IMG/VR virus record: IMGVR_UViG_3300021185_002592
Coordinates: 1-23,946 of that record
Source: a virus
Length of the DNA stretch: 23,946 nucleotides
Reading direction: 5' to 3' (one strand)
Below are positions 1 to 18,377 of this stretch, piece by piece. Below the pieces are notes generated by a model. The model saw only the letters and a program-made list of their open reading frames with translations. It searched no databases and was not told the DNA's origin. The first letter of the stretch is position 1; each line of letters begins with the position of its first letter. Made by a program: the position numbers and the translations under genes.

Positions 1-3000
1 CAGATGCTATCCACGGACCTACATTTTTAGGTACTCCTTCATTTTACATATCAGGATCAGCATCTGCCACAGATCATTTTATATCTGCATCTAACTTTAG
101 CCTTAAAGGTAACGGTGACATTACAGGATCAGCAGTACTATTTTCCGGAGGTAAAATAGCCGGATGGGAAATTACCAATACTCAAATAAGAAAATCTACT
201 AATGTTGTACTAGATGCGAATGCAGGTAGTGTAACTATAAACGATAGCACTTTCGGTAATAAAGGTATTCAGTTAGAATATAACGAAGGTACACCTAGAT
301 TTTATTCTGGGGATGGGACAGGAAGTTTTGTAAAATTTGACGGAACAGATGTTGCTATAGCGACAAGACTATTAGAAATTTCTGCTTCTGATATAGAGAT
401 ATCTTCTACAGAAGCTTCAATGTCTTTAGGAGGAGGTGATATAAAGCTTCTAGGTTCAGATGCTACAATAGAAGTAGGTTCAATAAATAAAGTTAAATTA
501 GTAGGAACTTCCACAGATGCGTTTATAGTAGCAGGAGATAAAACAGGCTTTGCTAGCAATGATGCCGGTATTATAATGGGTACCGATTCAACAGTTGCTA
601 CACTGGATCTTACTAAAGATGCTAGTAACTACTTTAGGTTTAACACAACAAGTGGTGTTGATATTAAGACAGATAGTTTTAAGTTAGACACGACTTATTT
701 CGATATAGATACAAGTACTCAAAGATTAAATATATTCGATACAGGATCAAAGGAAATAATTAGATTAGGAGAAATCTCTGACGATGCTTCTGACCTGTAC
801 GGTATTAAAATATTCGACGGATCAGGAACAGGAAGTGCTGAAACAATTGCAATGTTCGGCCAACAAGGTAATAAAATTGCCGGATGGGAAGTAACAGACT
901 CACAAATAAGAACTATACCCGCTGCAGGATTTGGAGAACAATACGCAGAAAACGAAGTAGGTCTAGTTATACATTCCTCAGGTAAGTTAGAATCTTCTAA
1001 TTTTGCTACTAACCTAAAAGGTTGGAGAATCGATACCCTAGGTAATGGGTCTGCTGAGTTTGAAAATATGAGAATACGTGGTACATTAAAGACCACTGTA
1101 TTTGAAAAAGAATCTGTAAACGTAGTAGGGGGTCAACTTATGGTAGCTAACTCTACTACAATAGAACCTCTAGTAAACGAATCAGGAGTAGTAATAGCAG
1201 GATCAGCTTCTTACGATGAAAACGCAGTTACTTTTTCTGTAGCAAATGTTTCTGGATTTGAAGAAGGTGAAATACTAAAAATTAAATCAGTTGATGACAC
1301 AGGATTCTCAGTTGAGTATCTATATGTATCAGGTTCAAAAAGGTATTCGCAAGATAGTAGCTTAGTCTATAACACAGGTTCTATTGACCCTGATGGTTTA
1401 TTTGGAGAACTATATGTAGAGAGATCTTACGGAGGTATAATAAATGTATCTTCTTCGATAGCAACATTAGGTGAAGATATAGATAATATAGAAACTACAT
1501 TTGATGTCAGCGATGGAAGCGGAATACTTCCTCAAAGTATTATCAAAGTAGGAGAAGAGAGATTTAAAGTAACCGGGATTGACTCTAATACATTAACCGT
1601 AATTAGAGATTACCACGATACTGTAGCAGACTCCCACAGCAATGGAACAACAGTATTTTTAATAGATACAGATAAAGAGTTCTTAGCAGGATTAGTTTCA
1701 ACAGCTAAACCGTATAATGCTGGACAGGTACTAGTCTCTACCGGGGTTTACAATACGCAAAAAGATATATCCTCAGGTTACATTTTAATGAATGCAAATC
1801 CTAGAGACGTTTCTACTCCTTATATGGACATAGTAGAAAGAACAGGCTCAGGGGTATATGATTTGCAACTAAGGTCTAGGTTAGGAGATTTATCCGGATT
1901 ATCATCAGCATACCTATACGGAAACGATGAACCAGGTTTTGGATTATATACTGAAAATGGTTTCTTTAGAGGAGCAATAACAGCACAAACAGGATCTATT
2001 GCTGGTATACTACATGTAGCAACAGTAGCAGGAGGACTTGAAACAGGTCAAAAGATATCTATCGGTAGAGATGTATCAGGAACTAATGATGGAATATATG
2101 TTAACAATAATAATTACTGGTACACAGACGGTGCTTGGAAAGTAGGCGGTAGTAACAACTTTATATCGTTAGATAACTTTACAGATGGTAATTTAGTAAT
2201 TAGTACTGAAACCTTTAGCTTAGATACTCCTAATATGATTATTTCAAGCTCACTTAATAGCGGATCAATTGCTATGGGTGTAAGTGCTAGTGCAATAACA
2301 GAGACAGCTGAAACCGGAATATATTTAGACGGTTTAGGTAAGTTTAGAGTTGGTACAGGTACATCAGGAAATAATTACATATACTGGGATGGTACTACAC
2401 TTAACATTAAAGGTTCAGTAGATATCACAGGAGGAACTGGTGCTACTACAGCTTATGTAGATCAAGCAGAAACAGATGCAGTATCTAGTGCAGAAACATT
2501 TACTAATTCAGCAACTGCATCTCTTGCAGGAATAGTAGAAGGAGTTACTGATACATTAGACGGTAAAATATTTACAGATAGTGCCGGTAGAGCAGTTAGA
2601 CCACCAACAGCATCAGCTGAAGGATTATATCTAGCATCTACTAACTTAGGGTTCTATAAGGATGGTGAATGGAAAACCTACATGGACAACCAAGGAGATT
2701 TCTTCTTAACAGGATCAGCAGGTAATAAACTAGCTTGGGACTCTTCAACAGGTAATTTAGAAATTAAAGGTTCGATAACCATTACAGGCGGAAATGCAGC
2801 AACACAAGATTTTGCATCTTCAAGTGCAGCAACAGCAGAATCAGCTTCATTAGCTGCTTTAACTAATGTATCATCTTCTTTAGCAACAGATTTAAGTGGA
2901 TCTACATTTACATTAACTAGTGCAATAGAATCTGCTGAATTAATAGCAAATAGTAAAGCAGCTATATTTAAACAAGCAACTCCTCCAACAGCAACCGCTA

Positions 3001-6000
3001 TTGGGGATATGTGGATAGAAACAGATGAAGGTAATAGAGTAAGAATATGGGACGGTACAACATGGGCAACTAGTCCTGATAGTACCTTTGATCAAACAGC
3101 GCTAATAAATGCAACATCAGCATCTCTATCTTCTTCTATAGCATTAGACGTATTTACAGATTCTTCTGGTAAGTTAGTTAAAACACCTTCAACCTCTTCA
3201 GCAGGTTTATACTTAGGAGATACCAATTTAGGGTTCTACTCAGGAAGTGAATGGAAGACTTACATGGCTAATAATGGTAATTTTTATCTAACAGGAAGTG
3301 ATACTAATTACCTATTCTGGGACGGTACTAGTTTAAATATAGCAGGTGCAATAAATATTACAGGAGGTAACGCTACTACAACAGATGACCTAAACTCAGC
3401 GGTAACCGAATCAAAAAATCATGCAGACAGTGCAGCATCAACAGCACAAACCAATGCAAATAATTATACGAACTCAGCAACCAGTTCATTATCTGGTTCT
3501 ATAGCAGGAGCTATAAATACAGTTTCTGGAGCATTAGCAGAAAATATACAATCCGGTTCAGACCTTAATACAGCAATATCAGCATCTCAAGCGTTAGTCA
3601 ACGAAGGACTTCAAGGAGTAGTTGATGGTAAGAATTCAATCTTTAGACAAGCAGATGCTCCTACCGCAACAGCTGTTGGAGACACTTGGATAGAAACAGA
3701 TGAAGGTAATAGAATAAGAATTTGGACTGGTACACAATGGGAAATATCATCTGATAACACATACGACCAAACTGGCTTAATATCATCAACATCAGCATCA
3801 GTAGCTTTAGATATATTTACAGACAGTACAGGTAAAATACAAAAACCAGCAACCTTATCTGGCGAAGGTTTATTTATGGATTCTACCAACCTAGGTTATT
3901 ACTCAGGAAGTGAATGGAAGACATACATGGCTAATAACGGTAACTTTTATTTAACTGGAAGTGAAACTAATTATTTAGCATGGGACGGATCTTCGTTAAC
4001 TATCTCCGGTAATATAAATGTAGTAGGAGGAAATGCAACAACTCATGCAGAGCTAGATACCGCTACCGGATCTTTAGAAACATTTGCCACAACCGCAGCA
4101 AGCGAAGTATCTTCTAGTTTAACCGGATCTATCGATAATGCACAAGAAACTGCAACCATAGCATCAGGAACAGCAACATCTGCAGCACAAGCAGCAGTAA
4201 CCGCTAGTGCAGAAGCATTAGCTGCCCAAGCAGCAGCGGCAACAGCAATAAGTAGATCGGTAGATGCAGACGGAAAAATAAGCTTTAACCCAGCTCCTTT
4301 AGGAGAAGGTTTATATATGAATGCTGATAACTTAGGATTTTATTCCGGAAGTGAATGGAAAACATATATGTCAGCATCAGGAGACTTTTATCTGTCTGGA
4401 GACGGTGATAACGGTCTTTCTTGGGATGGAGAGGATTTATCCGTAGACGGTACTATTGTAGCTAGAGCTGGTGAAATAGGTGGCATTACATTAGAAAGTA
4501 ATAAACTATATAATGGAACAGGTACTCACGGTAATTCCAATACAGGTTTCTATATAGATTCTGCTAGTAAATTCTCATTAGGAGATAAGTTAGTCTGGGA
4601 TGGTACAAACCTATCAATTGCAGGAAGTATAACTATTACTAACGCTACATATGCAACACAAACATCTGTCGACGCAGCAACCGGTTCATTAGAAACTAGT
4701 ATAAGTAATACGGCAGCAACTGCTAGTGCAGAAGCAAGCGCAGCACAAACTGCAGCAGAAACAACTGCTAATAGCGCATTAACATCCGCTACAGGTTCAC
4801 TAGAGACTAGCATAAGTAATACTGCAGCAACTGCTAGTGCAGAAGCAGCAGCAGCACAATCCGCAGCAGAATCATACACAGATAATAATGCAGTAGCTAA
4901 TGGAGACACTGGCTCTATGTTAGACCCCTACACCACACATGCAGCAACTAGTTCACTAGTAAATCCTAGTTCTTATTCATTTGGAGGAAGCGGGTTTACT
5001 TTAGATGCTGTACCTTCACCATCTGCAGGTCTACATTTAGGATCAGACAAGTTAGGGTATCATAATGGAAGTAGTTGGTTAACCTATATAGATTCAAGCG
5101 GAAACTTCTTATTGAGCGGTAGTGGAGATGATTCATTATCATGGAATGGAGAAGAATTGAGAATAGGAAACAGAGGAGTAGGTCCAACAGTAACATATCA
5201 ATTTAGTGGATCCTTAGATACTAATATTTTTGATAGTAGTATTACAACAACAGATACTTATATCACCCCAGTACTCGGTAATCGTTTTCTAAATAACGCA
5301 TCCGGATGGGATGAAGGGTTCCACACAAAAGCAGTTTTTGATAGAAACGATGGACCTACTTTTGAATGGGACGTTGTAGTGGGGGCTCAGAATCCTGCTA
5401 CTATGATTGGGCTATTTAAAGAAACCCCAACTACCTATCACTTTGATCAACAACACCATACCTTCTACTTACAGAGTAGAGATATATCAATTAGAGAAAA
5501 CGGAATTCAGATCGACGCAGGTCTGTCAAATGATTGGGTAGATGATGCTGATTTTTCTGAAAACCAGACATATAGATTAAGAATAACTCTTTTAGCAGCT
5601 GGAGCTAGATATGAAATTTATAGAAATGGAGACTTTACTGTCCCTGCATACGTTTACTCTTCTACTACCCTCACAGACCAATATCTAAGACCTGGTGCTT
5701 CAATACATTACAGTACCGCTGGTTTAGTTTTTAGAGGTTTAGCAGCAGGTACACAACTAGGAGCATCTACTAAAATATCAGGTAATACAATTAAAACTGG
5801 TAAGATATTATCAAGTAACCACTCTGGTACATCAAACGGATCCGCAATGTCATCAGCAGGTATGGCTATTGATTTAGATAACGGGGCAATATCTGCCAAA
5901 AACTTTAGGATAGCTTCCGATGGATCAGCTGTATTCTCAGGTACTATGCAAATAGGAGGAACAGATCTAACTTCAAATAACACATTAAATTCTAATACAA

Positions 6001-9000
6001 CTGCTACAGATGTAGGATTAAATAATGTAAATAATACAAGTGATGCCACAGTTCTTTCAGCAGCGGAAGCAACCGCACAAGGTCTTTCACCTATACTTTA
6101 TACCTTTGACGATGATGAAGGTATAAATACAAGTACCAATGAAGCAGGAGCAGATTCATTTACATTTAGTTCTACTAGAGCAGGAACAGCAAGACTTTCT
6201 TTAACTATAACAGATGCCGAAGCAACTGGTAACTACCCAGGCCCTTATGCAGGTATTCAAGCTTCCTTCAATGGTACAGCTTTTACCACTAAATTAAGCG
6301 GAACAGACAATGCTACAGTCGTGTATGAACAAGTAGTACAGGTTGTATCCGGTACAAATACACTTAAAGTATGGTCCTCTAATGGAGATGGAGGAACTAT
6401 AAGAAGAGTAGAGGTACTATACACACAGACAGAAGATTCAACTGCTGGTTCAGTAGGTGGGTGGACTATCGACCAATTTGCAATCTTCTCAGGTACCAAA
6501 GATACCGACGGATATACAACTGGAGGAATTACTCTTAACAGTCAAGGTTCTATTCACTCTAAAAAGTTCTATATAGATACATCTGGTAATGCATTCTTTA
6601 AAGGTGATATTACAGGAGCAAGCGGAACATTTTCTGGGACTCTGCAAATAGGAGGAACAGATTTAACTTCAAATAACACTTTAAACGCTAACACAACTGC
6701 AGATGATGTAGATTTAGGAAATGTAGATAACGATTCAACAGCAACCATAAGAGCTACAGGATCAGCAACATCCGGAACCGTAGGAGGATGGACTATCAAT
6801 AGTACTAATATATTCTCTGGAACAGCAGACTCTAATGGGTACACAACAGATGGAATAACATTGCATAGTGGAGGTTCTATTCATTCTCCAAACTTTTATA
6901 TAGATACATCTGGTAATGCTAAATTTAGAGGAGATCTAGAAGCAGCAGGAGGTACATTTGCAGGTAGTTTAAGAGTAGGAACAACTAATACAGCAGTAAG
7001 CACTGTTATATCAGGAGCAGCAGATGGTTCTACTGCGCTACAAGATGGAGAAGCAGCAACAGATGTTAACAACAACACAACAACCATATCCGGTAATAAG
7101 ATTAGAGCAGGTGCTTTATTAGCAAACAATCATTCAGGAACCTCAAATGGATCTAATTTCAGTGAAGCAGGAATAGCGATAGACTTAGTTAATGGAGGTA
7201 TATCAGCACCTAACTTCTTTATATCAAGTTCTGGGGCAGCAGTTTTCGGAGGAGTAGTTAACGCTACTGCAGGTATTACAGGTAGTATAATTAAAGGAGC
7301 AGAAATACAAGGAGGTACCCTAACAGGAGGAATTGTAAACGGAGGATCCATAAATGTACCAGATGCAATTGATCCTCAATTCTCAGTATCGGCAGATGGA
7401 TTTATGACAGCATCCGATGCTCAAATTTCTGGTGAAATAACAGCAACAGCTGGACAGATTGGAGATTGGATAATTGACCCAATTACTAAAGCGTTAAGAG
7501 ATGATAATAGTGAGATAGTCTTTTCACCTGACCCTGCTGAGATTCAAATGTTTAGTGGAGCCGATAAAAAAGTTATTATAGCACCAAGTCTTAACTTAAC
7601 CTCTACTGCTGGTGGAGCAGCTAGTGTAAGTACATTAGGAGCACCTGCTGTACCTAGTATTACCGCAGTAAGTTATTACTACCCAGTAACTAATACGACT
7701 TTTGGATCAGTCTCTGCTAATATACCTAACTCCACCTCAGGTGATAAAGAAGTAACTCTTACTGTACCAACATGGCAAGTAGAATCTCCAGGAGCTAACC
7801 AAACTGTTACTGTAGCTTACCCAGATTACCTTGGAACTTATGAAAACCAAAAACATGGTTTTGGATCAGGTAATAGAAAAATTAATCGTGCATCTATATT
7901 TCTATATGCAGTAGCAAGTTCTAATACAAATACTGTATTAGGACAAGTACAACTAGGAACTTCAACTGTACAATCTGGACACGACAGTTATACATACTAC
8001 AATGCATCCGGATCAGATGCTACATCAGATGGACCTTTCTTAGAAGGAATCACCTCAGTAACTGGTGATGCAGAAATTAGTTTAGCCGATGGTAGTATTA
8101 AATTAGCTAAAAATATTAGCGAAGAAGATACATTAAAGGTATACGATTGGGTGGACGGTAGTAATATTATTAGTTCTGGGTCAATATCTAAAGTAGTTTC
8201 TACTAACGTAAATCACTACTATCGAGTTAAAACAAACAGTACAGAAGTAAAGGTAAGTGATACTCACGGATTCTGGATAGACGGTAATAAAGAAATAAAA
8301 GTAACAAGTTTAGTTGCTCAAGAGAGTAAAATTTATATAGTTCAAAACGAAAGTATAGTACTTGAAACTGTTGAAGAAGTAGAATTAATTAGAGAAGAAA
8401 TTGAGGTATTTACTTTTAAAGTACCTAAATATAATAACTATATTTCTAATAACATTCTCTCTCACAACCCATCTTACGGTACCGATTATGCCTGGGAAAC
8501 AGTAACTGCCCCTGCAAAAAATGGTATCACATCCTATAGCGGACTCAGTGCTGGATCAAAAACAATTAATATCAACGTAAGTCAAGCAGTAGACTTTAAA
8601 CTGAGATATGTTGTCTCCTTTACTGCTCAAGCAGGTAATAACAAAGCATATAGCGCAGGAGGATCAGCAGCAGTAACAACAACTGCACAAACCAACAACG
8701 GCTTTTATCCAAATGTAGCCCCATCTTATGACGGAACAGTAGAAGTATCTGTTCCTACTAACTTTGTAGAAATAAAAGCCGAGGGTATACAGATTGTATC
8801 TGATGCTACACAGTATGTAAGAATGCCTCGTTTAGCTCAAGGAGCATCCTCTTCATCTACAATATTTGAAGCAAAAGGTGGTACAGTAGTTACAGATGCA
8901 TTAAAACCTAGTTCTAATGGAGGTCATAATTTAGGTACATCTAGTAGAAGATGGAATTATTTATACAGTGAAGGCGGTAGTTTTTCTGGAGCAGTAGCAA

Positions 9001-9368
9001 CAGGAGCCTTGACCGTTACAGGAGCAATAACTGCAACTGGAAACATTACAGCATTTAATTCTTCAGATAAAAGATTAAAAAGTAATATTGTTACTTTAGA
9101 TGGTGCTTTAGAAAAAGTACTTAAACTTAGAGGTACAAGTTTTGATTGGAAAGAAGGTAAGGAAGACATACATCCTTATAAAGGAAACGATATAGGATTT
9201 ATTGCTCAAGAGTTAAAAGAAGTTATACCTGAAGTAGTAGGAGAGATGCATGGAGGATTTTATGGAGTAAAGTATGATAAATTAACACCTTTATTAGTTG
9301 AAGCAATAAAAGAACTAAAAGCGGAAATAGATATACTTAAGTCTAACTCATGTAAATGTAAAAGATAA
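1..9368 (+). CDS. Giant modular tail fibre with Hint and S74 chaperone domains (5' partial)
   Basis: The frame is open from base 3 to the stop at 9366-9368, giving 3121 residues with no start in the window, so the ATG at 420 is internal. Upstream of it the protein continues with the same fibre-type sequence, including a GGKIAGWEITNTQIR unit that recurs as GNKIAGWEVTDSQIR near 870. The protein is rich in Ser, Thr, Gly and Ala. It has repeated GLYL..TNLGFYSGSEWKTYM units (about 2571-5172), a lectin-like insert (about 5178-5760), VGGWTI/FYIDTSGNA units (about 6447-6980), a Hint domain (8055-8468) and a terminal S74 domain (9063-9365). A stretch near 1795-1900 (DIVERTGSGVYDL) resembles sequence I know from marine phage fibres. 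The likely role is host recognition as a trimeric fibre on the virion. The stop overlaps the next start as TAATG. Confidence 0.9.
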   Translation, partial: DAIHGPTFLGTPSFYISGSASATDHFISASNFSLKGNGDITGSAVLFSGGKIAGWEITNTQIRKSTNVVLDANAGSVTINDSTFGNKGIQLEYNEGTPRFYSGDGTGSFVKFDGTDVAIATRLLEISASDIEISSTEASMSLGGGDIKLLGSDATIEVGSINKVKLVGTSTDAFIVAGDKTGFASNDAGIIMGTDSTVATLDLTKDASNYFRFNTTSGVDIKTDSFKLDTTYFDIDTSTQRLNIFDTGSKEIIRLGEISDDASDLYGIKIFDGSGTGSAETIAMFGQQGNKIAGWEVTDSQIRTIPAAGFGEQYAENEVGLVIHSSGKLESSNFATNLKGWRIDTLGNGSAEFENMRIRGTLKTTVFEKESVNVVGGQLMVANSTTIEPLVNESGVVIAGSASYDENAVTFSVANVSGFEEGEILKIKSVDDTGFSVEYLYVSGSKRYSQDSSLVYNTGSIDPDGLFGELYVERSYGGIINVSSSIATLGEDIDNIETTFDVSDGSGILPQSIIKVGEERFKVTGIDSNTLTVIRDYHDTVADSHSNGTTVFLIDTDKEFLAGLVSTAKPYNAGQVLVSTGVYNTQKDISSGYILMNANPRDVSTPYMDIVERTGSGVYDLQLRSRLGDLSGLSSAYLYGNDEPGFGLYTENGFFRGAITAQTGSIAGILHVATVAGGLETGQKISIGRDVSGTNDGIYVNNNNYWYTDGAWKVGGSNNFISLDNFTDGNLVISTETFSLDTPNMIISSSLNSGSIAMGVSASAITETAETGIYLDGLGKFRVGTGTSGNNYIYWDGTTLNIKGSVDITGGTGATTAYVDQAETDAVSSAETFTNSATASLAGIVEGVTDTLDGKIFTDSAGRAVRPPTASAEGLYLASTNLGFYKDGEWKTYMDNQGDFFLTGSAGNKLAWDSSTGNLEIKGSITITGGNAATQDFASSSAATAESASLAALTNVSSSLATDLSGSTFTLTSAIESAELIANSKAAIFKQATPPTATAIGDMWIETDEGNRVRIWDGTTWATSPDSTFDQTALINATSASLSSSIALDVFTDSSGKLVKTPSTSSAGLYLGDTNLGFYSGSEWKTYMANNGNFYLTGSDTNYLFWDGTSLNIAGAINITGGNATTTDDLNSAVTESKNHADSAASTAQTNANNYTNSATSSLSGSIAGAINTVSGALAENIQSGSDLNTAISASQALVNEGLQGVVDGKNSIFRQADAPTATAVGDTWIETDEGNRIRIWTGTQWEISSDNTYDQTGLISSTSASVALDIFTDSTGKIQKPATLSGEGLFMDSTNLGYYSGSEWKTYMANNGNFYLTGSETNYLAWDGSSLTISGNINVVGGNATTHAELDTATGSLETFATTAASEVSSSLTGSIDNAQETATIASGTATSAAQAAVTASAEALAAQAAAATAISRSVDADGKISFNPAPLGEGLYMNADNLGFYSGSEWKTYMSASGDFYLSGDGDNGLSWDGEDLSVDGTIVARAGEIGGITLESNKLYNGTGTHGNSNTGFYIDSASKFSLGDKLVWDGTNLSIAGSITITNATYATQTSVDAATGSLETSISNTAATASAEASAAQTAAETTANSALTSATGSLETSISNTAATASAEAAAAQSAAESYTDNNAVANGDTGSMLDPYTTHAATSSLVNPSSYSFGGSGFTLDAVPSPSAGLHLGSDKLGYHNGSSWLTYIDSSGNFLLSGSGDDSLSWNGEELRIGNRGVGPTVTYQFSGSLDTNIFDSSITTTDTYITPVLGNRFLNNASGWDEGFHTKAVFDRNDGPTFEWDVVVGAQNPATMIGLFKETPTTYHFDQQHHTFYLQSRDISIRENGIQIDAGLSNDWVDDADFSENQTYRLRITLLAAGARYEIYRNGDFTVPAYVYSSTTLTDQYLRPGASIHYSTAGLVFRGLAAGTQLGASTKISGNTIKTGKILSSNHSGTSNGSAMSSAGMAIDLDNGAISAKNFRIASDGSAVFSGTMQIGGTDLTSNNTLNSNTTATDVGLNNVNNTSDATVLSAAEATAQGLSPILYTFDDDEGINTSTNEAGADSFTFSSTRAGTARLSLTITDAEATGNYPGPYAGIQASFNGTAFTTKLSGTDNATVVYEQVVQVVSGTNTLKVWSSNGDGGTIRRVEVLYTQTEDSTAGSVGGWTIDQFAIFSGTKDTDGYTTGGITLNSQGSIHSKKFYIDTSGNAFFKGDITGASGTFSGTLQIGGTDLTSNNTLNANTTADDVDLGNVDNDSTATIRATGSATSGTVGGWTINSTNIFSGTADSNGYTTDGITLHSGGSIHSPNFYIDTSGNAKFRGDLEAAGGTFAGSLRVGTTNTAVSTVISGAADGSTALQDGEAATDVNNNTTTISGNKIRAGALLANNHSGTSNGSNFSEAGIAIDLVNGGISAPNFFISSSGAAVFGGVVNATAGITGSIIKGAEIQGGTLTGGIVNGGSINVPDAIDPQFSVSADGFMTASDAQISGEITATAGQIGDWIIDPITKALRDDNSEIVFSPDPAEIQMFSGADKKVIIAPSLNLTSTAGGAASVSTLGAPAVPSITAVSYYYPVTNTTFGSVSANIPNSTSGDKEVTLTVPTWQVESPGANQTVTVAYPDYLGTYENQKHGFGSGNRKINRASIFLYAVASSNTNTVLGQVQLGTSTVQSGHDSYTYYNASGSDATSDGPFLEGITSVTGDAEISLADGSIKLAKNISEEDTLKVYDWVDGSNIISSGSISKVVSTNVNHYYRVKTNSTEVKVSDTHGFWIDGNKEIKVTSLVAQESKIYIVQNESIVLETVEEVELIREEIEVFTFKVPKYNNYISNNILSHNPSYGTDYAWETVTAPAKNGITSYSGLSAGSKTININVSQAVDFKLRYVVSFTAQAGNNKAYSAGGSAAVTTTAQTNNGFYPNVAPSYDGTVEVSVPTNFVEIKAEGIQIVSDATQYVRMPRLAQGASSSSTIFEAKGGTVVTDALKPSSNGGHNLGTSSRRWNYLYSEGGSFSGAVATGALTVTGAITATGNITAFNSSDKRLKSNIVTLDGALEKVLKLRGTSFDWKEGKEDIHPYKGNDIGFIAQELKEVIPEVVGEMHGGFYGVKYDKLTPLLVEAIKELKAEIDILKSNSCKCKR
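2571..5172 (+). repeat. Five-copy GLYL/EWKTYM repeat array in the fibre
   Basis: Five diverged copies of a roughly 76-residue unit occur at about 2571-2805, 3153-3380, 3816-4043, 4260-4494 and 4995-5172. The pattern is FTDSxGK, GLYLxxTNLGFYSGSEWKTYM, NGNFYLTGS and LxWDGxxLxIxGxIxITGGNAT. A partial unit precedes them near 2310-2450. Copies are separated by Ala/Ser-rich, probably coiled-coil spacers. Two spacers also carry a PTATAxGDxWIETDEGNRxRIW module (near 2990-3050 and 3660-3735). The array probably forms repeated beta-helical or beta-prism segments of the shaft. Confidence 0.85.
4677..4871 (+). repeat. Near-identical 84-base direct repeat pair in the fibre
   Basis: Bases 4677-4760 and 4788-4871 are close copies of an 84-base unit that encodes ATGSLETSISNTAATASAEA plus an Ala/Gln tail. 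They are separated by 27 bases, so the period is 111 bases (37 residues). The differences are mostly third-base changes and a few Ser/Ala/Thr swaps. The product is Ala-rich and probably coiled-coil. Confidence 0.85.
5178..5760 (+). other. Lectin-like beta-sandwich insert in the fibre (putative receptor-binding module)
   Basis: This stretch breaks the repeat pattern. It has aromatic, non-repetitive sequence such as FEWDVVVGAQNPATMIGLFK, followed by alternating beta-strand-like segments (HTFYLQ, NQTYRLRITLLAAGARYEIY). That layout resembles concanavalin/LamG-type carbohydrate-binding sandwiches. A second, smaller beta-rich insert lies at about 6090-6435. The assignment is from general pattern only; no diagnostic motif is present. 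Confidence 0.45.
6447..6980 (+). repeat. Two-copy VGGWTI / FYIDTSGNA repeat in the fibre
   Basis: Two copies start near 6447 and 6774. They share the pattern VGGWTI, IFSGT, GYTT, GITL, GSIHS, FYIDTSGNA, F(K/R)GD and GTF. An IGGTDLTSNNTLN block that ends the first copy is also found near 5949, after a related unit starting at 5778 (SGNTIKTGKILSSNHSGTSN). That unit in turn is matched by one starting at 7089 (SGNKIRAGALLANNHSGTSN). The region is an interleaved set of duplicated fibre modules. Confidence 0.8.
8055..8468 (+). other. Hint / mini-intein-like domain inside the tail fibre
   Basis: This 138-residue segment has the ordered blocks of a Hint domain. Block A is SVTGDAEISLADGSIK followed by NISEEDTLKVYDW, which matches the usual C/S-x-x-G-D-T-x-I-x-x-x-D-G and I-x-x-G-D-x-V patterns. 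Block B is VKVSDTHGFWI, with the S-D-T-H form of the TxxH motif. The C-terminal blocks are VFTFKVPKYNNYISNN then ILSHN, ending in the typical His-Asn at 8463-8468. The size leaves no room for a homing endonuclease. The first residue is Ser (8055) and the residue after Asn is Pro (8469), not Cys, Ser or Thr. Bacterial intein-like domains of this kind can cleave rather than splice. Activity is not shown by sequence. Confidence 0.85.
9063..9365 (+). other. Peptidase S74 intramolecular chaperone domain of the fibre
   Basis: The last 101 residues match the S74 auto-cleaving chaperone found at the end of many phage fibres and endosialidases. The signature SDKRLKSNI starts at 9063. By analogy with known members, the Ser at 9063 and the Lys five residues later (9078) form the catalytic pair, and the chain is cut just before that Ser. 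GNDIGFIAQELKEVIPEVV and YDKLTPLLVEAIKEL follow, which are the usual conserved helices, then a short coiled-coil tail ending CKCKR. The domain helps fibre trimers fold and is then released. Confidence 0.92.
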
Positions 9369-9592
9369 TGGCAATACAATCATCAGGAGCAATATCATTT
9401 GCTGATTTAAATACCGAAATAGGTAATACATCGACAACCACTATATCTTTAGGAGGAGCAGCAACCTCATTCGGCATAGACACTGATGAAACAAATTGGA
9501 GTGATTCAGTCGCCGGTATTGGTATAGATGAATTTTACGGTTTAGATATTACTGTAAATTACGGCGGCAGCAACAGCGGTGGTACCACTTAG
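9368..9592 (+). CDS. Small virion-associated protein (MAIQSSGAISF type)
   Basis: This 74-residue protein starts MAIQSSGAISFADLNTEIG, a pattern I recognise from many marine phages. There, short proteins or domains with GxISxxxIxxEFG and ISL motifs sit beside tail fibre genes. No enzyme motif is present. The C-terminus is Gly/Ser-rich (YGGSNSGGTT), like a flexible or beta-structured virion part. The start overlaps the stop of the fibre gene as TAATG, so translation is probably coupled. The likely role is an accessory tail or fibre protein, inferred from position and the N-terminal pattern only. Confidence 0.7.
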   Translation: MAIQSSGAISFADLNTEIGNTSTTTISLGGAATSFGIDTDETNWSDSVAGIGIDEFYGLDITVNYGGSNSGGTT

Positions 9593-11611: not shown

Positions 11612-12094
11612 ATGATGGTAACAGTACCCAGTTGGACCTATGAAGGTCGCCTTGTAACACAAATAGAAGATATGCCGAAAGGCACTTACGGATTTATATA
11701 TGAAACAAGACATATACCTAGCGGTAAAAAATACCTAGGTAAAAAAGTACTTTATTTTGAACGAAATAAAAGACTAGGAAAAAAAGCACTAGAAAAACTC
11801 AGGTTAGAGAGAAAAGCTAAAGGTATAGGAGGTAGAACACCCTTAAAGCAAAAAATAATAACAGAGTCTGATTGGGAGGATTATTACGGGTCTCATAAAG
11901 ATATATTGAGATTAGTAAAAGAAGGTGCTCCAAAAGATTTTGAACGTAGAATACTATGCTATGTACCGAATAAGAAGCTTTTAACATATTTTGAATGTAA
12001 ATACCTATTTATAAATGAAGTACTAGAGAACAGAGACAACTACATTAATGATAACGTCTTAGGGAAGTTCTATAGAAAAGATTTCGAAATATGA
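11612..12094 (+). CDS. SegE-like GIY-YIG nuclease
   Basis: This 160-residue protein has the features of the T4 SegE-type GIY-YIG group. YGFIY (26-30) and YLGKK (41-45) stand for the GIY...YIG strands. A basic linker follows, then ESDWEDYYGS (85-94), a conserved motif of this group, and FERRILCY. Glu128 in TYFECKYLF is the likely catalytic acid that binds the metal. It should cut DNA. In T4, Seg proteins are homing endonucleases, while in many marine phages this version looks like a fixed gene. There are two adjacent ATG codons and I use the first. The 35 bases before it hold a short palindrome and no Shine-Dalgarno site. The 3' end overlaps the next gene as ATGA. Confidence 0.85.
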   Translation: MMVTVPSWTYEGRLVTQIEDMPKGTYGFIYETRHIPSGKKYLGKKVLYFERNKRLGKKALEKLRLERKAKGIGGRTPLKQKIITESDWEDYYGSHKDILRLVKEGAPKDFERRILCYVPNKKLLTYFECKYLFINEVLENRDNYINDNVLGKFYRKDFEI

Positions 12095-16672: not shown

Positions 16673-17641
16673 ATGAAAGGAACAAAAAAATTTATTTACG
16701 TATACCTCTTAACAATACTACTAGCTTCGTGCTCATCAGTACAGTTTAAATACTCTACATTAAATCATGCACAGACCGTAGATGGTATATATAACAGCAA
16801 TACAGTATTTGTCGATGTACCAATTGGAACACAAATTGATACATTAAATTACTTTCAACTACAGAGAAAGTTGAGAACTGATTTTAGATTTAGATACGAC
16901 TATGCTCAATATGCACTCAGTCAACCAATATCGTTTGATTGGAATAATAGAACGTTAGGTAATAGGTACAACTTTTACAACCCATATTATAGTAGATCCC
17001 AAATGTGGGATGACTGGGTTTGGGGATATAATTGGAATTCACCTCACAGATGGTCGCCATTTGGGTATGATAGATGGGGATATAACAATTTCGGATGGAA
17101 TAACTACTATGGATGGAATAACTACTATGGATGGAATAACCACGGATGGGGAAGCTATTGGAATAACCACTCACCATTTTATGGTAATCGATGGAATAAT
17201 TATAATAGAAGAGGTAATGTAGCCTATATTAACGGTAGAAGAAGCAGTGGGACTTCTATAGTAGATAGAAGAGCACATGCTGCAATGATAGAAACTTCTA
17301 AACGTAGAAACTTTGTAATTGAAGAAGATGGAGTAAGATGGTATTCTGGTTCAGAACAAAATAATAAAGAAATAATAACACCTCTAGAAAAAGAAGTAAA
17401 GATATTAGAAAAAAGAATAATTAATAGCAGAAGAAATGATAAAACTATCAACACTAATACTAGAATCTACGTCCGCCCCGAAGGCAGTAATAATGGCAGG
17501 TGGAGGGGGAGTAGGCAAATCGTACCTACTAAACCAACTATCCTTAGACAGCCTACAACAGTACAACCCAGACAAGTACGTAGAGGATCCGGATCATCCG
17601 TACCACAACAAACTAGGACCCGCATCAAACCAGGTAGCTAA
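16673..17641 (+). CDS. Phage-encoded lipoprotein with Trp/Asn/Tyr-rich repeats
   Basis: This 322-residue protein has a clear lipoprotein signal: basic start MKGTKK, hydrophobic core IYVYLLTILLA and lipobox LASC with Cys20. It should be lipid-anchored in the envelope. The middle (about 100-185) is rich in Trp, Asn, Tyr and Gly, with three tandem GWNNYY-like units. The C-terminal part is basic and polar. The last ~68 residues (from 17436) are read from DNA that also encodes the leader and P-loop of the next gene in another frame. That tail is low-complexity (Pro, Gln, Arg, Thr) and may be a by-product of the other frame. Phage lipoproteins often block infection by related phages, so a superinfection-exclusion role is possible but unproven. 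Confidence 0.75.
   Translation: MKGTKKFIYVYLLTILLASCSSVQFKYSTLNHAQTVDGIYNSNTVFVDVPIGTQIDTLNYFQLQRKLRTDFRFRYDYAQYALSQPISFDWNNRTLGNRYNFYNPYYSRSQMWDDWVWGYNWNSPHRWSPFGYDRWGYNNFGWNNYYGWNNYYGWNNHGWGSYWNNHSPFYGNRWNNYNRRGNVAYINGRRSSGTSIVDRRAHAAMIETSKRRNFVIEEDGVRWYSGSEQNNKEIITPLEKEVKILEKRIINSRRNDKTINTNTRIYVRPEGSNNGRWRGSRQIVPTKPTILRQPTTVQPRQVRRGSGSSVPQQTRTRIKPGS
17093..17146 (+). repeat. Three tandem 18-base units in the lipoprotein gene
   Basis: The unit GGATGGAATAACTACTAT occurs at 17093-17110 and again at 17111-17128, followed by a diverged third copy at 17129-17146. It encodes repeated Gly-Trp-Asn-Asn-Tyr-Tyr. Looser Trp-Asn and Trp-Gly repeats continue on both sides, which suggests growth and loss of units by slippage. 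Confidence 0.85.
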
Positions 17642-18377
17642 AGATGTAGCAGCAGCTACTGAAGATAAGCAAAGCTTCGTTTGGGATACTACAGCATCAG
17701 GTGCTAGATTTATGTCCCAACTTGATAATATGATGTCCGCAGGGTACGATATTTACATGGTTATGGTGTATGCACATCCTATGATTTCATATGCTGCTAA
17801 TTTTGAACGTTCAGAAAGATCTCTTCCTTCTGTTGCAGTCTTCTCAACATGGAGAAATGCCTATCAATTAATCGGCGAATATCAAGAAAAATTAAAAGGT
17901 AACTTATCAATATACGTTAGTGATAGAGGAGGAAAATACTCTAAAGAAGTAGAGGGTTTCAATAAAGCAGCAGAAAAAGGAGTTGAAGGGATAAAAGAGT
18001 ATTTAAGAGCTTATAACGAAGAAACTGGTGCTGGAAAATCAACATTCTTTAAACCTGTAGAAATGTCTAAAGAAGAAGAAACTGCGTTTAATCAAGCAAT
18101 ACAAGACGTACAGTACGATAAAAATAACCGATCAGAAGATAAAGCTATTAAAACAGCATTCTTAAAAGCATTTAAAAAGAACGGAGTAAGTCCTGGAGGA
18201 GATAAATTAATAGATGCTGTAAAAAAGTACAGAGATAGTAAGAATAAATCTGACGAAAGAAATAATGATGTTCTAAAAAATATTGCAGAAATGCTATTCA
18301 GCCCTGTATTCCAGGAATTATTGAAACATTCAGAAGTAAGTGAAATAGATAGAAACGTACAATCCTTTTTAGCATGA
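17436..18377 (+). CDS. Zeta-toxin-like P-loop kinase with capsid-targeting-like leader
   Basis: In this 313-residue protein the Walker A motif is GGGGVGKS (22-29) after strand AVIM. FVWDTTASG (Asp84) sits where zeta-type kinases have their second acidic motif. GYDIYMVMVYAHPMISYAANFERSER follows the zeta pattern of a strand and an Arg-rich lid, here cut short. Zeta toxins phosphorylate UDP-N-acetylglucosamine; phage relatives may phosphorylate other small molecules. The C-terminal 100 residues are charged and helical. The start MIKLSTLILE, followed by Ser, fits a capsid-targeting leader (cleavage after I-L-E), which supports this ATG. Starting later would still leave the P-loop inside the 206-base overlap with the lipoprotein gene. 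No antitoxin is seen nearby. The stop overlaps the next gene as ATGA. Confidence 0.75.
   Translation: MIKLSTLILESTSAPKAVIMAGGGGVGKSYLLNQLSLDSLQQYNPDKYVEDPDHPYHNKLGPASNQVAKDVAAATEDKQSFVWDTTASGARFMSQLDNMMSAGYDIYMVMVYAHPMISYAANFERSERSLPSVAVFSTWRNAYQLIGEYQEKLKGNLSIYVSDRGGKYSKEVEGFNKAAEKGVEGIKEYLRAYNEETGAGKSTFFKPVEMSKEEETAFNQAIQDVQYDKNNRSEDKAIKTAFLKAFKKNGVSPGGDKLIDAVKKYRDSKNKSDERNNDVLKNIAEMLFSPVFQELLKHSEVSEIDRNVQSFLA

Follow-up and report, generated by a model that had tools for sequence, protein, structure and literature searches.

Hint domains are known as inteins, as bacterial intein-like (BIL) domains, and as the processing domains of Hedgehog proteins. Among BIL domains, those of A-type carry a conserved terminal His-Asn and are located in variable proteins (PMC7765530), and BIL domains without a nucleophile at the +1 position, i.e., the first residue after the domain, yield mainly cleaved products (PMC7664689). 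Here we evaluated a Hint candidate in the tail fibre of a virus, using the entire 23,946-base record as the window of analysis. The phages carrying this type of fibre are uncultured and aquatic.

Hint domain and layout of the fibre

The fibre-encoding frame is open from the first bases of the window to position 9368 and reads 2982 aa when counted from the first ATG at 420, so that the fibre is at least 2,982 aa long, the 5′ end of the ORF being open. Its C-terminus matches PHROG baseplate and long tail fibre families, and a Peptidase_S74 domain (PF13884, 61.6 bits for a cut-off of 22), with Ser-Asp at its start, begins at 9063. The following features were delineated:

3–9368 (+): tail fibre ORF, 5′ end open, with C-terminal baseplate/tail-fibre PHROGs and S74
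7641–8015 (+): beta-rich fibre domain 5′ of the Hint (AlphaFold model of 7620–9065, residues 8–132, pLDDT about 75–92)
8016–8054 (+): linker to Ser1, variable and often Gly/Ser-rich (family sequences; pLDDT <50 at model residues 133–142)
8055–8468 (+): Hint domain, Ser1 to Asn138 (translation, profiles, alignment, fold model)
8055–8093 (+): block A, SVTGDAEISLADG, with Ser1 at 8055–8057 (invariant in 27/27 family members)
8253–8282 (+): block B, VSDTHGFWID, with His71 at 8265–8267 (27/27) and S/T at His-3 (27/27)
8406–8468 (+): blocks F and G, VFTFKVPKYNNYISNNILSHN, with His137-Asn138 at 8463–8468 (both in 27/27)
8469–8471 (+): +1 residue, Pro by translation, variable among family members
8469–9062 (+): 198-residue tip segment from the predicted Asn138 cut to the S74 cut, the first ~92 residues modelling as a beta domain
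9063–9365 (+): S74 intramolecular chaperone, starting Ser-Asp-Lys-Arg-Leu-Lys (PF13884, residues 2882–2940 of the 2982-aa reading)
9368–9592 (+): next gene, a 74-aa small protein whose homologue in several relatives bears a second, C-terminal Hint, missing here

The initial annotation, made from the sequence alone, had placed a Hint/mini-intein-like domain at 8055–8468 within a tail fibre, starting with Ser and ending in His-Asn followed by Pro. Translation bears this out to the base: the segment encodes 138 residues (SVTGDAEISLADG...VSDTHGFWID...VFTFKVPKYNNYISNNILSHN), and the next codon, 8469–8471, is Pro. The NCBIfam profile TIGR01445 (intein_Nterm) scored 26.6 bits, above its cut-off of 24.5, while Pfam PF14890 (Intein_splicing) scored 35.5 bits, slightly below its cut-off of 35.8, and matched 25 of the 27 family members at E ≤ 0.01. 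Blocks A, B, F, and G occur in the proposed order, with two corrections of detail: block B reads S-x-x-H instead of T-x-x-H, and the usual His and Asp of block F are replaced by Asn and Thr. The domain is devoid of Cys, as are 22 of the 27 members.

The horseshoe Hint fold, whose absence had been set beforehand as grounds for discarding the proposal, was obtained with AlphaFold2 using the 27 homologues as alignment (pLDDT 89.4), and this model matched solved inteins and BIL domains with Z about 19–22. Foldseek and VIA-align searches returned only Hint proteins as top matches, including the Ssp DnaB intein (Z 21.6), Tetrahymena BIL2 (Z 20.9), Npu DnaB (Z 20.5), the C. thermocellum BIL (Z 19.2), and Hedgehog (1at0, Z 18.8). 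In the alignment with the Mtu RecA intein (2in0), model residues 9..146 pair with intein residues 1..440, which places Ser1 (model residue 9) on the first intein residue and Asn138 (146) on the last. A chance resemblance was rejected based on profile scores and fold, and the model identifies 8055–8468 as a Hint domain.

In a wider model of 7620–9065, the Hint is flanked by two beta domains, the first of which is connected to it by a loose linker (pLDDT <50); the pTM of 0.47 leaves the relative placement of these parts unsure. A structural search with this flank model was filled by matches to Hint proteins. Asn138 lies 198 residues ahead of the S74 serine, in line with the roughly 200 residues first estimated. 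Further upstream, the shaft includes diverged repeats (window 2616–4370 and 5933–6730), e.g., a 69-base unit (~GLYxxxxNLGFYSGSEWKTYM) present four times at spacings of 441–663 bases.

Outside of the fibre, a GIY-YIG SegE-like homing endonuclease gene (PF19835, 81 bits) is located a few genes 3′, at 11612–12094, and a Zeta-toxin-like kinase domain (PF06414, 36.3 bits) is encoded at 17436–18377, in a frame that shares ~200 bases with the 3′ end of the gene before it; its product is probably a polynucleotide or small-molecule kinase.

Family members, selection, and the +1 residue

Scanning viral contigs directly gave close relatives, and 30 stretches, mostly fibre Hints along with a few unrelated frames, were returned for a DNA pattern covering the end of blocks F-G including Pro. 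Because requiring Pro biases a survey of the +1 residue, we rescanned without reference to +1, with an alignment that ended ahead of the final Ser-His-Asn and patterns drawn from blocks B and F only, excluding Ser1, His137, Asn138, and +1. This yielded 43 loci. In total, 27 distinct Hints of sufficient length for comparison were aligned, i.e., the window and 26 further relatives in viral contigs; for four of these (L066, L078, L087, L088), the Hint start was shifted by eye a few residues 5′ of the tblastn start, to the SV motif. Most members are 34–48% identical to the window Hint. No relative of the fibre Hint was found in annotated phages or in the genome contigs scanned, nor did annotated phages include any relative of the fibre segments immediately flanking it; the nearest Hints in annotated phages were enzyme inteins in terminase and DnaB, at 24–26% identity. 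One candidate relative, LR745208, was rejected as an ordinary DnaB-type intein. Synechococcus phage S-SRM01 has only the S74 end in common with the window fibre, and Salicola phage SCTP-2 and Vibrio phage GR11A gave weak matches in hypothetical genes.

Twelve of the 136 comparable columns are invariant across the 27 members (S1, V2, A18, V67, H71, F73, W74, V118, N128, Y129, H137, and N138). All four catalytic residues (Ser1, His71 of block B, and the terminal His137-Asn138) are among these 12 (column-only hypergeometric 3.6e-5), with the qualification that H71, F73, W74, N128, and Y129 lie inside the search patterns, so that their invariance is partly built in, whereas Ser1, His137, and Asn138 lie outside. 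The +1 residue is Pro in 13 members, Val in 6, Ser in 3, Ala in 2, Thr in 2, and Phe in 1, and is thus incapable of serving as a splicing nucleophile in 22/27, with Ser or Thr in 5/27. On the Hint tree, +1 requires at least 8 changes, while Ser1 and His-Asn never change. Even two near-identical fibres (L076 and L079, Hints 97% identical) differ here, with HN-PIGM and HN-SPMGM, i.e., Pro and Ser at +1. The Pro singled out by the initial annotation is therefore one state of a freely varying position. The usual block F His is found in only two of the 27 members, and every member has Thr or Ser at the F4-aligned position.

Hint dN/dS ratios (Nei-Gojobori) were lower than those of both flanks in 14/14 pairs, which are non-independent and in some cases near saturation. 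For the window and L059, for instance, the ratio was 0.14 for the Hint, 0.36 for the upstream flank, and 0.25 for the downstream flank. Purifying selection is thus stronger on the Hint than on the adjoining fibre segments. A comparison with homologous fibres lacking the domain had also been suggested, yet searches of a partial collection with the upstream flank, the downstream flank, and the downstream NFVE motif recovered no Hint-less allele: all 27 loci with this motif and enough upstream sequence carried the Hint, two others being too short. Together with the strong purifying selection on the Hint and its invariant catalytic residues, this speaks for an autoprocessing domain that is fixed in the fibre: a mobile intein with empty alleles appears unlikely from the flank and NFVE searches of this collection, and a decaying one was rejected on the invariant catalytic residues and dN/dS.

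The co-occurrence of Hint and S74 in one fibre, initially deemed unusual, recurs in many fibres, and the Hint is also found in fibres without the strict S74 motif. Since this motif (SDxRLK) is present in 11 of the 27 Hint fibres and the others end differently, the two modules are not obligate partners, and their pairing is recurrent but not obligatory. The C-termini of L073 and L074 display SRRYKKEIEDW where SDxRLK is expected, which may represent a diverged chaperone of S74 type following the fibre Hint.

Separately, in several relatives (L010 2256–2981, L004 1594–2328, L015 745–1479) the small protein encoded directly 3′ of the fibre terminates in a second Hint, and such a Hint also adjoins the fibres of L065, L087, L088, and L090. 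This second Hint starts with Cys in L010 and L004, and its HN is followed by Ala, Ser, Asn, or Val. The corresponding window gene stops after 74 aa, ahead of any Hint. A 1304-aa protein of Phage NCTB (LT598654.1; L102 500–4414) bears the same kind of Cys1 C-terminal Hint, ending HN-APVDQKH.

Predicted self-cleavage and alternative explanations

Constant catalytic residues alongside a variable residue at the position needed for normal splicing suggest fibres that undergo self-cutting close to the tip in place of splicing. As initially argued, standard splicing is unlikely with Pro instead of Cys, Ser, or Thr at +1, and a bacterial intein-like reading fits a terminal His-Asn without a required +1 nucleophile. 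We consider it reasonably probable that the Hint is a fixed, autoprocessing domain with A-type-BIL-like behaviour in the distal fibre. We infer cleavage most likely after Asn138 and probably also at Ser1. After folding, Asn138 would cyclise with the assistance of His137, breaking the bond to the next residue, and an N-O acyl shift at Ser1 followed by hydrolysis of the ester would allow the Hint to leave on the N-side as well. N-side cleavage is likely because Ser1 otherwise need not be invariant, although it is less sure than the cut at Asn138. Trimer contacts would then retain the 198-residue tip on the fibre, with S74 removing itself following trimerisation. The likely use would be a tip freed from the shaft, e.g., for flexibility, exchange, or timed maturation, and not the restoration of a continuous chain: with the Hint between two separately modelled beta domains and behind a loose linker, there is no obvious need for splicing.

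The weakest point of the cleavage reading is Pro at +1, which is a poor residue for Asn cyclisation in the inteins studied and, in engineered inteins, generally among the worst for C-terminal cleavage; a literature search on Pro at +1 in inteins gave nothing usable. The block F His aids Asn cyclisation in many inteins, and its lack of conservation here (2/27) would count against cyclisation of Asn138. Asn-Pro does not undergo deamidation by backbone attack, since Pro is without an amide hydrogen, and on chemical reasoning side-chain cyclisation would be the remaining spontaneous reaction. The invariance of His-Asn could also be partly structural. In its strongest form, which we put forward tentatively and consider doubtful, this serine-based Hint family would be a dedicated fibre-maturation device, cutting, and perhaps re-joining via the free N-terminal amine (here Pro), every trimer strand near the tip. 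If true, this would amount to a programmed chain break or a side-chain-free ligation in a virion part.

A catalytically silent Hint acting as a structural module of the fibre, e.g., a knob or spacer, would be consistent with its presence at all assessable loci and with a Pro at +1 and a missing block F His/Asp that would weaken catalysis. This is nonetheless unlikely, as the catalytic residues, including the His-Asn at the exact end of the domain, are invariant among members mostly only 34–48% identical to the window. The related suggestion that activity had been lost is likewise improbable given this invariance in 27 divergent members and the strong purifying selection.

Similarly unlikely is a non-canonical self-splicing. 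Here, cleavage at both ends would expose the amine of the first tip residue (Pro, Val, Ala, etc.), and attack by this amine on the Ser1 ester would ligate tip to shaft with no +1 side chain involved. In favour, Ser1 matches Asn138 in its invariance, which a purely C-terminal cleavage would not require; in addition, Aranko 2013, as cited in PMC7664689, reported a BIL domain that ligates in the absence of nucleophilic side chains. However, an oxyester is less reactive than a Cys1 thioester, BIL domains mainly cleave (PMC7664689), and the modelled flanks resemble two independent domains with a loose linker.

We find it very improbable that the Ser1 ester instead serves in an acyl transfer that would couple the shaft to a further strand or to a small molecule, by analogy with Hedgehog and its cholesterol: both an invariant Ser1 and the structural match to the Hedgehog Hint (1at0, Z 18.8) would fit, but neither a region for acceptor binding nor a conserved acceptor residue was found, and the final His-Asn would not be needed. 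Least credible of all is the loss, past or ongoing, of the +1 nucleophile from an otherwise canonical mini-intein. Even though the nearest annotated-phage matches are the terminase and DnaB inteins and five members have Ser or Thr at +1, the nucleophile is absent in 22/27 over deep branches with no decay elsewhere, purifying selection is strong, and no empty allele was found among the 27 assessable loci.

Should the preferred reading of a fixed, self-cleaving Hint hold, the maturation of phage receptor-binding fibres would gain, through this family, a self-processing step in addition to that of S74. Fibre Hints would also represent natural Ser1, Asn-Pro domains for asking whether Asn cyclisation and ligation work without a +1 side chain.

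Comparison with known systems

Within the window fibre, the Hint is accompanied by the S74 chaperone (PF13884), a separate self-cleaving module. The 'large intein domain protein' of Phage NCTB (LT598654.1) is comparable in that a Hint ends a large protein whose gene adjoins a tail fibre gene, and in that HN is followed by a non-nucleophile (Ala). Unlike the fibre Hint, however, this Hint has Cys1 and occupies the extreme C-terminus, followed by a tail of a few residues, and is of another kind. Tetrahymena BUBL1 BIL2 (6y75, 6tmm) shares the fold (Z 20.9) and is among the top matches to the fibre Hint profile, but belongs to a eukaryotic ubiquitin-BIL locus and has Cys1 (C1A in the solved chain). 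This profile scored 39.6 bits for BIL2, 39.5 for the Spl DnaX mini-intein, and 30.8 for the C. thermocellum BIL, in one range with other inteins, so that by such scores the fibre Hint is not separated from inteins.

Class 1 mini-inteins (Ssp DnaB 1mi8, 6fre; Npu DnaB 4o1r) provide the closest fold (Z up to 21.6) and share the block order and a position-1 nucleophile, Cys or Ser in this class and Ser in 27/27 fibre members. They differ in requiring Cys, Ser, or Thr at +1, where the window has Pro and 22/27 members a non-nucleophile, and in their hosts, the fibre Hint residing in a fibre and not in a conserved enzyme. Class 1 inteins are sporadic insertions for which empty alleles exist; all 27 assessable loci in this partial collection carried the Hint. 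Class 3 inteins lack a position-1 nucleophile and have a Cys at position 4 of block F (WCT motif), whereas all fibre members have Ser1 and Thr or Ser at F4. With the A-type BIL of C. thermocellum (PDB 2lwy), the fibre Hint shares the fold (Z 19.2, 1.6 Å over 134 residues), the terminal His-Asn without a required +1 nucleophile, and a variable, non-conserved surface protein as host, the fibre flanks diverging faster than the Hint. It differs in the Ser1 of every member, in an identity of 16% to 2lwy, and in its location in a distal phage fibre between two fibre domains, where cleavage is predicted. Overall, the fibre Hint departs from class 1 inteins at +1 and from class 3 inteins in WCT, and displays the sequence characteristics of A-type BILs, and we favour a BIL-like reading.
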